Below are positions 2,851 through 63,925 of a DNA stretch of 64,000 bases, piece by piece (the first letter of the stretch is position 1; each line of letters opens with the position of its first letter). The position numbers and the translations under genes are program-made. The stretch comes from Sphaerolaimus hirsutus (taxonomy: Eukaryota > Nematoda > Chromadorea > Monhysterida > Sphaerolaimidae). The stretch spans positions 21,030,318 to 21,094,317 of the forward strand of contig OZ038451.1 of assembly GCA_964036195.1 (NCBI GenBank). Reading direction: 5' to 3'. Under the pieces are notes generated by a model that worked only from the letters and a program-made list of their open reading frames with translations, ran no database searches and had not been told where the DNA came from.

Positions 2851-7027
<4,177 letters not shown>

Positions 7028-18124: not shown

Positions 18125-19595
18125 TAAACACCTTCCCGGACAAGTTCACCACTCAATTTTTTATTTCACTTCGGATGTAATATCTCCTTCTATGGGGGTG
18201 TTATAAAGCTGAAACTTTGAATATATAAAGTTGTAACACCCCCCTACTCTGCTTCAATGGGGGGAGGTGGGGCAACTCACTGCAGGGTGGGTTGCCCTAT
18301 ACGCAACAATTTTTTTTTGGCTTTTTTGCTGTCCCAAACAAGTTCACCACCCACTTGATTAGCTACACTTTTAGGGTCATATGTCCAGCTGTGAGGCTGG
18401 TATATGATGCTGAAATTTGGGGGATGTCTTGCCAACCACCCCTTACAATACACCAGTGGGGCTGCCTGCCGGTGACCCACTACAGTATGCATTGCTGCAT
18501 GTACAGTTGTTCACTTTTTCAAAACAACCCAAGTGTCCTAAACAAGTTTGCCATCAAACTGCATTATAAAAAATGTTGTGAGAACATACCTGGTATAAAA
18601 TTGAGTCAGATTTGAACCCTAATTCTGCTCATTAAGAATTTTTCAGTAGGGCACCCACCCTGTCCCATAAACAGCAGGCTGAAAATTTCACTTTAAACCA
18701 ATTTTTTGTTTCACACTTTTAAAGTTGGTTTACAAAGTTCATTAGGCAAGGGTCCAATGTTCAAAGTTACTTAAACAACATGACCTCTAAAATGCCTCCA
18801 TAAGGAAATTTATTTGGGGTGAAAATTATGGTGTCATGATGGCATCATCACAGGAACAAAATTTGACAAAATTTCCATTTTTTCATTCACCCCAAATAAA
18901 TTTCCTTATGCAGGCATTTTAGAGGTTATGTTGTTTACATAACTTTGAACCTTAAACCCTTTCCTAGTGAACTTTGTATACCAACTTTTCAAGTGTGAAA
19001 CAAAAAATTGGTTTAAAGTGAAATTTTCAGTCTGCTGTTTATGGGATGGGGTGGGTGCCATACTGAAAATTTTTTAATGAGCAGAACTAGGGTTCAAATT
19101 TTATTCAATTTTATATCAGGTACATTCTCACAACATTTTTTTATAATGCAGACAGATGGCGAACTTGTTTGGGAGACTTAGGTTGTTTTTAAAAAATGAA
19201 CAACTTTATATGCGGCGACCCATGCTGTAGTGGGTCATCAGCGGTCACCCACTGATGAATTGTTAGAGGGGGTTGTTTGCAAGACATCCCCCAGATTTCA
19301 GGTTTCTATCACCCACACAGCTGGAGATATAGCCCTTGTAGTATAGCCAATCAAGTGAGTGGTGAACTTGTTTGGGACACCGAAAAACCCAAAAAAATGT
19401 TTGCATGTAGGGCGACCCACTCTGTAGTGAGTCGCCGCACCTTCCCCCATTAATACGGAGTAGCGGAGTGTTAGGACTATTTACCAACCAAATATTAGCT
19501 TTATTTTATATTACTATACGGTTTCCATAGCCAGAGATATTGCATCTGAAGTGAAATGAAAAAATGGGTGGTGAACTTGTCCGGGAAGGTGTTTA
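18125..19595. mobile_element. Foldback (palindromic) element, TAAACACC family, copy 1
   Basis: 1471 bp. It starts TAAACACCTTCCCGG and ends CCGGGAAGGTGTTTA. The two halves (about 18125-18860 and 18865-19595) are imperfect reverse complements over their whole length, leaving almost no loop. There is no ORF with protein-like composition and no convincing target duplication. It is nested in the 17618-20688 element. Confidence 0.9.
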
Positions 19596-32177: not shown

Positions 32178-34359
32178 ATTAGGTTGTAAACTAAATAACC
32201 TTATTTTTTGCGATTTCACATTCAAGCATCCCATTCTGTTGTACATTGGCGGATATAAATGCCGTTCGAGTATGTTAGGGTTTGGGGCCGGGGCTATGAC
32301 GAAATCTTTTTGTTTCCTTGAAAAATCCCCCAGTCCCGAGATAAGGGGGGTCTATCAAAACATGTTCATTTTGCATTGCCGATCTTGCTGATTGAGTTAG
32401 AAGCTTAATAACTTTCTCATTTCTAGGCCGATTTGGACTGTTTAACACTTAAAATGATCGGGACAACCGTCAGATTCTATTTTTGAGGTCGTATCAGTGA
32501 TGTCTCAATTCCTTATGCCGATTTGATCCAGTTTTTAGACGCGTAAACAAATTTATCTGAACATGCTGTCGTATACTTTAGACCACGAGAAGTCGTATTC
32601 CAAAAGAATGAGTTCAATATCGCTTTCCAATCAAAAGTTATAGCACTTCAAACTTTCGCCTCCCATCCACATACAGGACCGATCACTCACATCCGACCAT
32701 GAGCGATTTTTTTGGAAAATTATTCACCACCCCAGAACTAGGGCATTTCGGCCGGGTCTGTTCCATGAAAAATAAAGTTCAAACATTTGCCTAAAAAAGT
32801 ATATGGGCACCCCCTGGCTGGAACCCACCTTGGGCCGTGTAAACGGCCCACATTTTTTTATACTCTTTTTGGCTGATCACTCAAGTCCAACTGCGAGTGA
32901 TAATCAACTAAAATCATGCTTTTCAAGGCCGAATTTTGGCCTGAAATACAGAGCATGTTCATGGCGAATTGCCAAATGCAACTTCAATGGCTTTTTTAGC
33001 GAAAAAAATAGGATAATGATATTTTTTAGTTTGTATTGATTTGTATGGCGGAACGCACTTCGTCAGAATTTTTATCGCAGCAATTTTTAACGCTGCAAGA
33101 CGAAGCTATGAAAACACTTCCACATTAAAGAGAAAGCCAGAGGCATTTTTTTAAAACTTTCCCCACTCAAATGCCAAATAAATCAAATTTGAGAAAACGC
33201 CAGGTGAAATTTAAAAAACCTCGCTACATTTCCCTCAGTACTAATTTTTTTCCCAGAACGAAATAAGTAACATCTTCAAAGTTCGCCTCACACGTTCTCA
33301 AATTTGATTTATTTGGCATTTGAGCGGGGAAAGTTTGAAAAAAATGCCTCTGGCTTTCTCTTTAATGTGGAAGCGTTTTCATAGCTTCATTTTGCAGCGT
33401 TAAAAATTACTGCGATAAAAATTCTGACGAAGTGCGTTCCGCCATACAAATCAATACAAACTAAAAATCATCATTATCCTATTTTTATCGCTAAAAAAGC
33501 CATTGAAGTTGCATTTGACAATTCGCCATGAACATGTTCAGTATTTCAGGCCAAAATTCGGCCTTGAAAAGCAGGATTTTAGTTGATTATCACTCGCAGT
33601 CGGACTTGAGTGATCAGCCAAAAACAATTGAAAAAAATATATGGGCCATTTACACGGTCCAAGGTGGGTTCCAGCGGGAGGTGCCCATATACTTTTTTAG
33701 GCAAATGTTTGAACTTTATTTTTCATGGAACAGACCCGGCCGAAATGCCCTAGTTCGGGGGTGGTGAATAATTTTCTAAAAAAATCGCTCATGGTCGGAT
33801 GTGAGTGATCGGTCCTGTAAATAACCGCATGAAGAATGAATGATGTGCGCAACGTCAAAACTCCAACTCTCTAGCGTTTTTCAGCCGATTTTCACGATAA
33901 ACACTTAAAATGATCACAATAACCTGGAGATCCATTGTGATGCTCAGGTTATCTCTATGCACTTTCAAAATGATAATTTCATACAAGAGTTCACAATATT
34001 TTCTTGTATGGGAAATCTAATTAAATGTACAGGTGATTTGAAGATCACAATGGAATCTCCAGGTTTTTGTGATCATTTTAAGCGTTGATCGACCCAGATA
34101 TGCCCAGCAATGGCTGATGTATGGAGCTCAAAAATTCGTCCAACATCCAGATCGGCCATTCAAAATGACCACCTTTCTATAGACCCCCCCTTATCTCAGG
34201 ACTGGGGGAGTATACGAGGAAACAAAAAAATTTCGTCATAGCCCCAACCCCAAACCCCAACATACTCGAACGGCATTAATATCTGCCAATGTACAACATA
34301 AATGTACGCATGAATGTGAAATCACAAAAAAATTAAGGTTATTTAGTTTACAACCTAAT
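32178..34359. repeat. 2.2-kb palindromic foldback element
   Basis: The left end ATTAGGTTGTAAACTAAATA is mirrored by the right end TATTTAGTTTACAACCTAAT. Correspondence continues inward through GTTCGAGTATGTT, ATAAGGGGGG and AATGTGGAAGCGTTTTC to a centre near 33270. It lies next to the hAT element above. A larger outer pair (TAGGCGGTGCAAG near 31097 and CACTTACGCCGCC near 34539) suggests a bigger host element. No protein-like ORF. Confidence 0.85.
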
Positions 34360-36303: not shown

Positions 36304-37769
36304 TAAACACCTTCCCGGTCAAGTAAGCCACCCATTTTTTTCTTTCACTTCGGAAGCTATATCTCGGGCTATGGTGGGGTTATAGAGCTGAAACTTTGTG
36401 AATATATACTTGTAACATCCCTCTACTCTGCATCAAAGGGGGGAGGCATGGCGACCAACTACAGGGTGGGTCGCCCTATATGCAACAATTTTTTGCCAGG
36501 TTTTCAGTGTCCCAAACAAGTACACCACCCACTTGATTAGCTATACTAAAGGGGCTGTATCTGCAGTTGTGGGGGTGGTAGAAAGCTAAAATTTTGGGGG
36601 TATCTTGGCAACACCCACCCCTACTATACGCCAGTGGGGCAGCTCCGACGACCCACTACAGTTTGTGCCGCACTGTATAAAGTTGTTTTTTTTTAAAAGC
36701 GACCCAAGTGTCTCAAGTAAGTTCACCACCTAAAGGAATTAAAAAATTTTTTTTGAGAACATACCTTATATAAAAAACTGAATCAGGTTTTCACCCTAGT
36801 TCTGCTAATTAAAATTTTTTTCCTTTGTTTAGCCACCCCCATCATAAATGGCAGACCAAAAATTTCACTTTAAACCAATTTTTTGTTCCACACTTTAAAA
36901 TTTGGTTTACAAAGTTCAGTAGAGGAGGGTCTAAGGTTCAAAGTTACGTAAACAACATGACCTCCAAAATGGCAACATAAGGAAATTTATTTGGGGTTAA
37001 TTCTATGATGTCATAATGATGTCATTGCAGGAACAAAATTTTACAGAATTTTCACTTTTTCATTCCACCCAAATAAATTTACTTATGTTGCCATTTTGGA
37101 GGTCATGTTGTTTACATAACTTTGAACCTTAGACCCTCCTCTACTGAACTTTGTAAACCAACTTTTAAAGTGTGGAACAAAAAATTGGTTTAAAGTGAAA
37201 TTTTTGGTCTGCCATTTATGATGGGGGTGGCTCAACAAAGGAAAAAATTTTAATTAGCAGAACTAGGGTGAAAACCTGATTCAGTTTTTATATAAGGTAT
37301 GTTCTCAAAAATTTTTTTTAATTCCTGTAGGTGGTGAACTTACTTGGGACACTGGGGTAGTTTTTTTTAAAAACAACAACTTTATACAGTGTGGCACAAA
37401 CTGTAGTGGGTCGTCGGGAGCTGCCCTACTGGCGTATAGTAGGGGTGGGTGTTGCCAAGATACCCCTAAAATTTTAGCTTTCTACCACCCCCACAACTGG
37501 AGATACAGCCCCTTTAGTGTAGCTAATCAAGTGGGTGGTGTACTTGTTTGGGACACTGAAAACCTGGCAAAAAATTGTTGCATAGAGGGCGACCCACCCT
37601 GACCCACCCTGTAGTTGGTCGCCATGCCTCCCCCCATTGATGCAGAGTAGAGGGATGTTACAAGTATATATTCACAAAGTTTCAGCTCTATAACCCCACC
37701 ATAGCCCAAGATATAGCTTCCGAGATGAAATAAAAAAATAGGTGGCTTACTTGACCGGGAAGGTGTTTA
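36304..37769. mobile_element. Foldback element, TAAACACC family, copy 2
   Basis: 1466 bp. TAAACACCTTCCCGG at the left and CCGGGAAGGTGTTTA at the right. The halves are reverse complements over nearly the full length, centre near 37035. Closely related to 18125-19595. Confidence 0.9.
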
Positions 37770-38722: not shown

Positions 38723-41700
38723 TCACTTTCTTTTTGCGGCTAGAACTTTGCCGCCAAAAGGACAAGTGTCTCTATTGAGACAGGATTGACATTTTGGGCC
38801 AATGGGCAGACAAATTTGCTGCCCAAATCCAACTAGCAGGTGGTTCACTTCAGCCCAAGTGGATCTGTGAGATTAAGAATATTTATTATCCTGAGTGTAA
38901 TTGGAAGGATTTGGTAGTGAGGATAAAGAAACAAACATTTTGCAATATGTATATCCAAATGCAGCAAAAAATAAGCGGTGGGAAATTGGCCTGTCAACTT
39001 TCCGTTGCGGTTTTCTAATGGCAAAAGTTTTACTTTCTCATTTTCCATTTTCTGTCAACTCAAAAGTTTGGCACTGTTATTTTCGTTTTCTGTCAGTTAA
39101 AAAGTTACACCTTCCTATTTAGTAGTCAAATGCCACGCACAATGTCAAAAGTATAGTAAAAAATGACTTTTTATTTTAATTGACATTTAGCATGACATTT
39201 GACACTACTTAACATTTTACAGGGTGCGGGACAACCTCCAATCCGGTACAATAAGATCTCACCTTGGCAGAAAACCTTCCAAGTCTTTCCTGGTCGCTTC
39301 TGGTTGTTTGGTTGGCTTGCGCACCCAGCCCAGTCTGTTGGCGACACTGCGTTGGGCAAAGATTATCTATCAAGAGATAATTCAAATCAGGGGTCTCCTA
39401 GATTTTGACCCTCCGGTGGGTTGTATAGATAGCTGAGCGGCCTCCGGGATAGATAGATAACTGGAAAAAATTTGGTGGGGGTTGCGGGGGGCTCTCAGAC
39501 CCTGTAAAATGTCAAATGTCATGCAAGTGTCAAATGATGGAAAATTCCCCGAAAAATGTTTAAAAAAATATCAGGTAAAACAATTAAAGAAAATTTGACA
39601 TTTAAATCTGTCATCGAAATTTAAGTGACATTTTACATGACTTTTGACGCTTCGCATGACATCTGACATTTTACAGTGTCACCTAAGGTCAGAATCCAAC
39701 ACCAAAAAGCTCAATCAACCAAAAAAGTGCAAAAAGTAGGTACCGGTGCACGTGGGTGTCGACCCCGATGCCGGTGAGTTGATTCCATGCGCTGCGCATG
39801 CACAAATGGGCCATTTTTGGCCCCACGCCAGGCAGCGCGCACAGGCCATCCAAAGTGGATGGGATGTCTCCCCCGTGCTGAGTTTGGCAAATTGCAGCCG
39901 CCGCTTTGATGTACGCTACTTTTTTCTGGATTTTTTTTAAAAGTTGTCAGTGGTTAAACAAGCGAAATTTTAATTTGATGACGAATTAGTGTTTTCATTT
40001 ACAAATTTAGTAGTCACATATCATTTTACTTGTCACTTATAGGTTTACTTGACAATGTGCATAATTGTCACGCGATGCAGCTAATTCCGCAAGTGTACAA
40101 GTGTCAAGAAAAAGGGTATATCTTAATAAAATTTAATACAATGTCAAGTCACAGGTCAAGTGACAAGTAAAAATGGAGACTAAAAAAGTAAAAAGTGACA
40201 AGTAATGTGACGCACAACTTATCTTTAATATCTGTCACATTTGTTTTTGACTTTGTACTTGTGTTACCACTTATAACTATGCTTGTAAACCTCATCCCCA
40301 AATACCAACTTTATAAAAGCCCACGGGCTTAATAATCTCTTCCATTCTCTGCGCGCTCATCTGCAAAACACCGGCGACGTTGCACTGTTTCGTGTCGATA
40401 AGTCGCCTCATGGCCGCGGAAGTCACCTGGTCCCAGATCCAATTGGAACGTAAGGCGCATGTAAGGCGCACCGAAGTGAGCGCGCTAAATTGTGCGCATA
40501 ACGTTGGGCGCCTTACCTGAGCCTTACCTTCTAATTGGATCTGGCACCTGGTCCTTGGTCTGGCTGGACAGCATCAGTGCTAGAAGCAATTGGAAGCGGC
40601 GCTCCTGTGTTGAGAGTGATGCGGTGTGGAGAAACGTTGTTTTGGATGTGCAAAAAAAGTTGTAAAGTGAAATAGACCCATCATGTTTTCTGTGAGTTAG
40701 GCTGCTCCGATAGGCTTTTGTAAGACACCGATAAACATGATCATTTGTGAGCGCATCATTTTTTCAACATGTTACATTTACACAAAACGGTCATTTTCTG
40801 TTTGATGTCCTCCTAAGTCTCATTTACAGTAGGGTTTTCAACACTTTACCTGGAAATAAAATATATCAGTTTATGGATAACTTCTCAAATTCAGTGCAAA
40901 AACCCTAAAAATTTGTCCGCAATCACAACGCAAACCAACAAAAAACACCTTCTCAAACTCGATATAGCACCACGCACCCGTGGCTCCGCCTTCTTATCGC
41001 AGCAAGTGTCGCAGCCCATGGAATCCACCGGTGCGTCGTTGCCGGCGCGCATAGAACGAATGTTGTCCAATTGCACCCGCCAGGAAGGGGGCGACCAATC
41101 AACGTTCAAGTCTGTGTGGAAAGATGAAATTGGAAGGCTGCCAAGGGAATGCATATGTTATTAATAATACGCATTTATAAATAGATAATAGTTAAAGTAC
41201 AGGTGGCGAAACATCTTTTCAAAGAGCTATTTCCCATGGGGAATTCCAGGGGCCACTCCCAGATCCAATAAAACACCCTGCAACATGTAGAATGTCGTGC
41301 AAAATGTCAGAAGTCATAGAAAATGTGATGAAATATGTCAAAAATGAGTAAAGAAAATTGACATTTTACACCACTTTTAACACTCTGCATGACATGTGTC
41401 AAACAGGGAAAAAGAGCTAAGAGGATTTCTCAAATCTAGCACAGTAGTGAGCCACTGATAACCGGCAGTGGTACGGTACTGACCATTTTCAACATGGCTT
41501 TAAACGGCGCGGTAACGTTTCACATTTACAGGTATCTATTTGAAAGTAGAAAAATTTTTGAAGGTACAGCACGATTATTTTCACAGCCTAGATTATAACT
41601 CGAATCTCAAAAACGACCTAACCTTCAATATCAGGTGAATTTTCAGCAAAATCCGCAGTGCTAACATTAGCACTATCAGAAGCTTCACTGGTTTTTACAT

Positions 41701-53325: not shown

Positions 53326-63925
<10,600 letters not shown>

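Follow-up and report, generated by a model that had tools for sequence, protein, structure and literature searches.

Introners, insertions whose repeated copies act as introns, bear on the old question of where introns come from, for which animal cases are few: in the survey by Gozashti et al. (2022, PMC9860276), which covered 835 genomes of animals and land plants, only two groups are reported to have them. In the same survey, Florenciella family 2 is described as co-opting both splice sites from the insertion site, and Aureococcus sp. family 4 as carrying both splice sites itself and lengthening the transcript by 12 bp. The insert in the NTHL1 gene described here very probably belongs to a family of non-autonomous DNA transposons with inverted repeats, which acts as an introner at CCWGG. 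As in Florenciella family 2, copies would recur in exons as introns, take both splice sites from the target and leave the frame unchanged; unlike that family as described in the survey, this one has an animal host, long inverted repeats with built-in decoy donors, and a CCWGG target that yields GT-AG introns in one orientation and apparently GT-TG introns in the other. It would add nothing to the transcript, in contrast to the 12 bp given for Aureococcus sp. family 4, and it shares inverted repeats, target duplications and a MITE-like structure with the Aureococcus and Micromonas introners as they are presented in PMC9860276 and PMC7789003.

Three further systems are close in their termini. 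The non-canonical introner elements of the dinoflagellate Amoebophrya have hairpin-joined ends, boundary direct repeats and termini partly outside GT-AG, as the copies here would have, but the account in PMC7789003 gives them direct repeats of 3-5 nt and widely variable ends, whereas the present copies belong to a single family whose ends are fixed and whose donor is GT. The tunicate Fritillaria borealis is, like our host, an animal with candidate introns without a 3′ AG; the report on it (PMC13326754) describes many such introns, which its authors tie to a duplicated U2AF, whereas our host is apparently no tunicate and its ordinary NTHL1 introns are GT-AG. Human TG 3′ splice sites, which share the GT...TG termini, are described as alternatives to an AG no more than 28 nt away (Szafranski et al. 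2007, PMC2374985), unlike the present ones, which would recur in one transposon family and be required for the frame. The sequence evidence set out below gives good support to an introner family in an animal, and of its copies those ending in TG most deserve a test. Together the copies form a natural series, in which a transposon would supply the splice sites through its choice of target alone.

An inverted-repeat element inside the NTHL1 coding sequence

The window (the whole stretch of 64,000 nt that was analysed) contains the features listed here in gene order; a slash marks a splice boundary, and all exons were assigned by frame and human match.

40978..41111, minus strand: NTHL1 exon (LNVDW...AEPR)
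40548..40604, minus strand: NTHL1 exon before the intron (ERRFQ...TKDQ)
40545..40554, no strand: donor-side copy of the direct repeat CACCTGGTCC; CCAG/G on the gene strand at 40551-40547
40427..40547, minus strand: inferred intron CAG/GTGCCA...GACCAG/GTGACT, 121 nt; frame restored, gap-free against human NTHL1 at the junction
40433..40544, no strand: inverted-repeat element (CCAGATCC...GGATCTGG), 112 bp, with a family in its own genome
40519..40544, minus strand: family end sequence, donor side, one mismatch to the 26-base pattern
40522..40527, minus strand: decoy donor AAG/GTAAGG, 20 nt into the intron
40511..40516, minus strand: decoy donor CAG/GTAAGG, 31 nt into the intron
40450..40454, minus strand: branch-like CTTAC with its A 25 nt upstream of the exon; predicted to pair with the decoys
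40433..40458, plus strand: family end sequence, acceptor side, exact match to the 26-base pattern
40424..40433, no strand: acceptor-side copy of the direct repeat CACCTGGTCC; CCAG/G on the gene strand at 40430-40426
40310..40426, minus strand: NTHL1 exon after the intron (VTSAAM...GFYK)
39744..39925, minus strand: NTHL1 exon (KKVAY...DTHVHR)
39263..39346, minus strand: NTHL1 exon (VANRL...FLP)
38724..38864, minus strand: final NTHL1 exon, reaching the stop codon region

A sequence-only reading of this DNA had described a 113-bp inverted-repeat element between perfect flanking copies; both are present, the element measuring 112 bp and the direct repeat 10 bp (CACCTGGTCC on the plus strand). The two ends, CCAGATCCAATT and AATTGGATCTGG, are perfect inverted repeats bounding 40433-40544, and the arms form a 45-nt inverted repeat with 87% complementarity. 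The 26-base end pattern matched twice in the window, at the two ends of this element, and not once in 100 shuffles. A scan of the window for 7-10 bp direct repeats with inverted ends gave six rows at five places, the NTHL1 element among them, and none in three local shuffles. The RNA of the element is predicted to fold much more strongly than 200 shuffled versions of it (z -8.07).

On the gene strand, the surroundings of the element read ...AAGGACCAG/GTGCCAGATCCAATT...AATTGGATCTGGGACCAG/GTGACT.... Cutting AG/GT in both target copies, as had been proposed from the letters, takes out 121 nt and leaves an uninterrupted NTHL1 frame. With this CAG/GTG...CAG/GTG cut, the exons encode 237 residues as far as the stop region, and the product matches human NTHL1 (7rds) with an E value of 6.5e-82, gap-free at the DQ/VT junction, as well as the Pfam HhH-GPD family (3.4e-21). 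It is from these frames and this homology that we infer splicing of the NTHL1 intron.

If the element were retained, a TAA stop would be reached at intron codon 8. That stop, together with the weak donor, would fit a broken or segregating null allele in which the element stays unspliced and the restored frame is a mere trace of the empty site. We regard this as improbable, given that the remaining NTHL1 exons are all open and match human NTHL1, that the gene is single-copy (all three genome matches lie at one locus, with no second copy) and that the same arrangement recurs across many genes with intact flanking frames, too many for chance nulls. The chance is slighter still that an older ordinary intron occupied this site and was later replaced or filled by the element: the whole 121 nt consists of the element plus one target copy, human NTHL1 is not known to have an intron at DQ/VT, and at the MPI locus treated below the paralogue is uninterrupted at the introner position.

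The introner reading has its counterpoints: the weak GTGCCA donor, two better donors inside the element, a predicted stem that buries CTTAC, and an in-frame alternative from AAG/GTAAGG. The internal GTAAGG donors had been said to break the frame; both exist and both lose the frame with the repeat's CAG acceptor, but AAG/GTAAGG joined to a downstream GCCATGAG keeps it exactly, changing five to six residues (TSAAM to PDPIR). An intron cut in this way, from what is the better donor, is nevertheless a long shot, for the VTSAAM stretch, a match to human VTAGAM, would be exchanged, and in other exonic copies the decoys are lost or the sequence there differs, yet the cut at the CCWGG edge is kept. 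As for the weakness of GTGCCA, which the sequence-only reading had thought in need of explanation, weak donors are common in NTHL1 (GTGCGT, GTTGGT, GTACCT and GTGAGA besides GTGCCA), the likewise weak GTACCT serving an ordinary intron of the gene. The weak donor beside strong decoys is a family-wide matter, the GTAAGGCGC decoys being the subterminal repeat.

A transposon family with a CCWGG target

A genome-wide search for the element ends, suggested with the original observation, was run on 348 Mb in 762 contigs and returned 928 matches (479 + 449) to the 26-base pattern at up to three mismatches, against 0 + 0 for the reversed control. Searching with the whole element gave 73 candidate matches, the best other full-length one being 74% identical over 139 bp; a 78% match is the element's own reverse strand. 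Both ends were paired in 41 distinct copies from loci L001-L096, and the 44 loci that lacked a pairable partner were excluded. The family has the terminal inverted repeats, short length, many copies and target site duplication of a MITE. The exact end pattern had no match elsewhere in the viral_contigs and genome_contigs collections, in which near relatives may be left out.

The CCWGG target stands two bases off the inverted repeat, and its successive positions are C in 60, C in 70, T in 41 or A in 30, G in 79 and G in 78 of the 82 ends. The two central bases of a copy are TT in 17, AA in 9, TA in 5 and other in 10 of the 41 paired copies, an agreement of 0.66 vs 0.41 expected; the register that matches is 9 bp, but its excess lies at the central base, the outer bases being unremarkable. 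When ten copies were added to the 41 pairs, 20 of 51 had an identical core; three of these 20 (NTHL1, L005 and L133) matched over the full 9 bp, vs 0.30 in shuffles (p 0.003), and their outer matches totalled 32 of 80 vs 26.7 expected (p 0.09). We first read the duplication as 5 bp by rule, and the three 9-bp matches speak against this; a 9-bp duplication that has decayed in most copies is the more likely. The 8-bp duplication given by the sequence-only reading fits neither length. That reading had also held that introns are, or were recently, being made in this genome, which is left unsupported: the best matches listed among the fetched loci reach 74-83% identity, and in most copies the duplication has decayed. 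A literature search for a CCWGG target with duplication found only one unrelated E. coli paper, and one for later introner work on horizontal transmission listed a mirusvirus paper alone; we do not claim that the family is absent from print.

Exonic copies in unrelated genes

Flanks without a database match were read as coding by eye, and gene identities were backed by Pfam and PDB; a codon-score classifier of flanks was dropped because it had too little training, and the NTHL1, tubulin and RtcB flanks scored low with it. Most copies seen sit outside recognisable exons, both flanks reading as coding in 6 of the 41 pairs. Three of these six have CCAGG on the sense strand (NTHL1; L034, which is cysteine-rich; L040, ammonium-transporter-like) and three have CCTGG (L2HGDH, L011; MPI, L041; L093). 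The donor T is present in 5 of the 6 donor ends read as coding and in 23 of the 76 other ends (one-sided p 0.016, the six cases having been picked by eye).

Further cases came from unpaired loci (L094, in the aquaporin gene, and L045, a paralogue) and from 36 ends chosen for CCAGGT or its one-mismatch form beside the inverted repeat. By eye, the left flank was coding in 16 of these 36 (L098, L099, L100, L102, L111, L112, L116, L122, L125, L126, L127, L128, L131, L133, L135 and L136). The paralogues L117 and L118 were fetched from CCTGGT ends, as were L119 and L120, which, like L149, have no recognisable exon around the copy; in L062 and L150, the left flank reads as coding. Extending the downstream sequence of 12 loci resolved the right flanks of L100, L111, L122, L127, L131, L133 and L136 but not those of L115, L125, L126, L128 and L135.

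With paralogues counted once, removal gives GT-AG ends in 11 of 12 loci with sense CCAGG: NTHL1, L034/L045, L098/L099, L100, L111, L112, L122, L127 (where the element is eroded on its right and the acceptor is TATCAG), L131, L133 and L136. Exact removal of the element at 1493-1804 of L040, the ammonium-transporter-like gene (Pfam, 1.1e-6), would leave GG-AG ends. Database matches run across the junction in RtcB (4.9e-27 and 7.6e-20, gap-free), DHHC (4.3e-25), Metallophos (2.2e-10) and a Cys-loop receptor (9e-9), and in an amino-acid permease at 1.6e-4, below Pfam's cut-off; tubulin (5.4e-9) and thioredoxin (7.4e-10) were matched by left flanks alone. Solved structures were matched by RtcB, PP1 and DHHC20. 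No Pfam family was found for L112 (read as COX11), L098/L099 (ankyrin-like) or L034, and no protein was identified for L093, L100 or L111 by eye, Pfam or PDB. The host genes are unrelated, seven loci matching different families besides NTHL1, the weak permease and the weak MPI. The gap-free junctions of NTHL1, L2HGDH and RtcB indicate that the coding sequence is unchanged by insertion. The sequence-only reading of the NTHL1 insert as introner-like is supported: it belongs to a transposon family, and the exonic copies of this family fit exactly as introns whose splice sites lie in the duplicated target or at its edge.

Copies in the opposite orientation and the TG acceptor

The sequence-only reading did not foresee that the family also has copies in the opposite orientation, whose introns would end in TG. 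Sense CCTGG occurs at five loci: L2HGDH, MPI, L093, the UAA transporter (L117/L118) and the aquaporin (L094). At all five, the donor is CTG/GT and the acceptor CCTG/, and exact removal keeps the frame, implying GT-TG. We give slightly less than even chances to the reading that these insertions are GT-TG introns, spliced precisely and constitutively and probably aided by a hairpin that closes at the junction. If this is true, housekeeping genes of this animal, L2HGDH for one, would carry a set of introns that were born of a transposon and end in TG. The rival reading, confined to the sense-CCTGG copies, is that TG goes unused, and that nearby AGs are spliced, alone or in tandem with TG, or that the alleles are damaged; this too we would put a little short of an even bet.

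The position of AG speaks for the rival. According to the account in PMC2374985, TG 3′ sites occur in human genes only beside an AG within 28 nt, and an AG lies between +9 and +28 after the TG in each of our five cases, so tandem use is possible. Among exact ends genome-wide, CCTGGT is also rarer than CCAGGT (16 vs 33, with 106 CCTGGV and 75 CCAGGV; odds ratio 2.9, p 0.002). Such counts fit a retention of ends that make GT-AG and suggest that CCTGG is a less favoured, though not an excluded, source of introns, the six exonic pairs above being evenly split between the two.

Against the rival stands what the AGs would cost. The in-frame GT-AG alternatives at the CCTGG loci bring deletions of at least three residues or, in L093, one exchange plus an insertion. 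In L2HGDH, the match to the fly protein is gap-free across the junction (3e-23; Pfam FAD oxidoreductase, 6e-9), and splicing to the closest in-frame AG would cost it AYE, residues that are kept in that match; the gene is single-copy, both genome matches flanking the element and no uninterrupted copy being among them. The UAA transporter aligns 61 residues with 61 profile positions across the junction (1.3e-14), and its seven in-frame AG alternatives all alter the protein, the shortest also needing another donor; against solved structures it gave only chance-level matches. In the aquaporin (MIP, Pfam 4.9e-6; a solved structure weakly, 0.02), the sole alternative found deletes 13 residues.

The match of MPI to Candida-type enzymes is gap-free and weak (0.082), the phosphomannose isomerase Pfam match (0.001) is below the cut-off, an AG at +21 is in frame, and a stop upstream bars the alternative-splice comparison. 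A second paralogue at C15:18392293-18392421, 48% identical, is uninterrupted at the position of the element, which makes it an empty site, lessens the weight of constraint as an argument and counts for the rival.

If the CCTGG copies are spliced, the family would offer A and T in matched pairs at one and the same acceptor position, a direct test of the strictness with which an animal spliceosome demands AG and of whether a hairpin can replace it. Our search for U2AF1 found one gene on C14, a near-identical set on the small contig C720 and a diverged homologue on C16 (C16:15183258-15191469), which may be ZRSR2 or a second U2AF1.

Decoy donors, a predicted hairpin and a proposed mechanism

Seven cases were folded (NTHL1, L2HGDH, MPI, L093, L117, L112 and L098), and all but L117 show by eye one long stem closing at the junction (6 of 7). 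In these predicted folds, the probability of being unpaired is 0.11-0.23 for the decoy donors, where present, and 0.23-0.39 for the true donors, a modest gap. CTTAC, which may be the branch site, has values near 0 in NTHL1, L2HGDH, L093 and L112, 0.67 in L117 and 0.61 in L098; MPI has no CTTAC. Ordinary splicing should be hampered by a branch site buried in a stem, which leaves two options: opening of the stem in the cell, or splicing guided by the structure.

We propose that a transposase inserts the element at CCWGG, a site that is palindromic except at its centre, and that the site is duplicated in the process. Where CCAGG is in sense, the left copy would supply the exon-end CAG and the donor G, the base adjacent to the element the donor T, and the right copy the acceptor CAG, so that excision of the element with one duplication would leave the coding sequence as before. 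In the modelled hairpin, the GTAAGGCGC repeats of the 5′ arm, which hold the decoys, pair with the GCGCCTTAC repeats of the 3′ arm; a hairpin closing at the junction would conceal the decoys and set the weak donor beside the acceptor. Because the target is nearly palindromic, a proto-splice site on one strand and CTG/GT on the other, introns could arise in either orientation if the GT-TG reading is true.

Other features of the window and genome

Several other repeats were observed. Two elements of about 510 bp (window 5955-6474 and 54219-54733) have 8-bp direct repeats and perfect 11-base inverted ends. Positions 1-2626 hold a tandem array with a unit every ~166 bp and identity alternately higher and lower, and large fold-back elements, whose inverted arms are nested and 82-98% complementary, lie at 32672-33819, 36304-37769 and 18460-19250. 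The introns of NTHL1 (41400-41270, 39720-39500 and 39250-39110) contain related TGTAAAATGTCA...TGACATTTTACAG stretches, which also adjoin several fetched family copies and are possibly another inverted-repeat family, bearing GTAAAA and TTTACAG. A 13-base match to the end of the NTHL1 element (TCCCAGATCCAAT) lies at 41256-41268, upstream of the exon 41111-40978, with no partner end found within the window.

The mitochondrial contig is 14,754 bp long, and its COX1 contains 14 TGA codons. In a 600-nt piece of COX1, AGA stands at four places that we take to be Ser positions of animal COX1, and AAA reads as Lys at one site. The tunicate reading of AGA is Gly; a tunicate host, first considered on the number of large scaffolds, was rejected on these AGA positions, the code being an invertebrate one and apparently not that of tunicates.

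Besides NTHL1, the window holds exons read as proteasome ATPase subunit 7 (4870-7024) and as a ubiquitin hydrolase (62616-63907), and SH2 and kinase domains were matched among its scanned ORFs.
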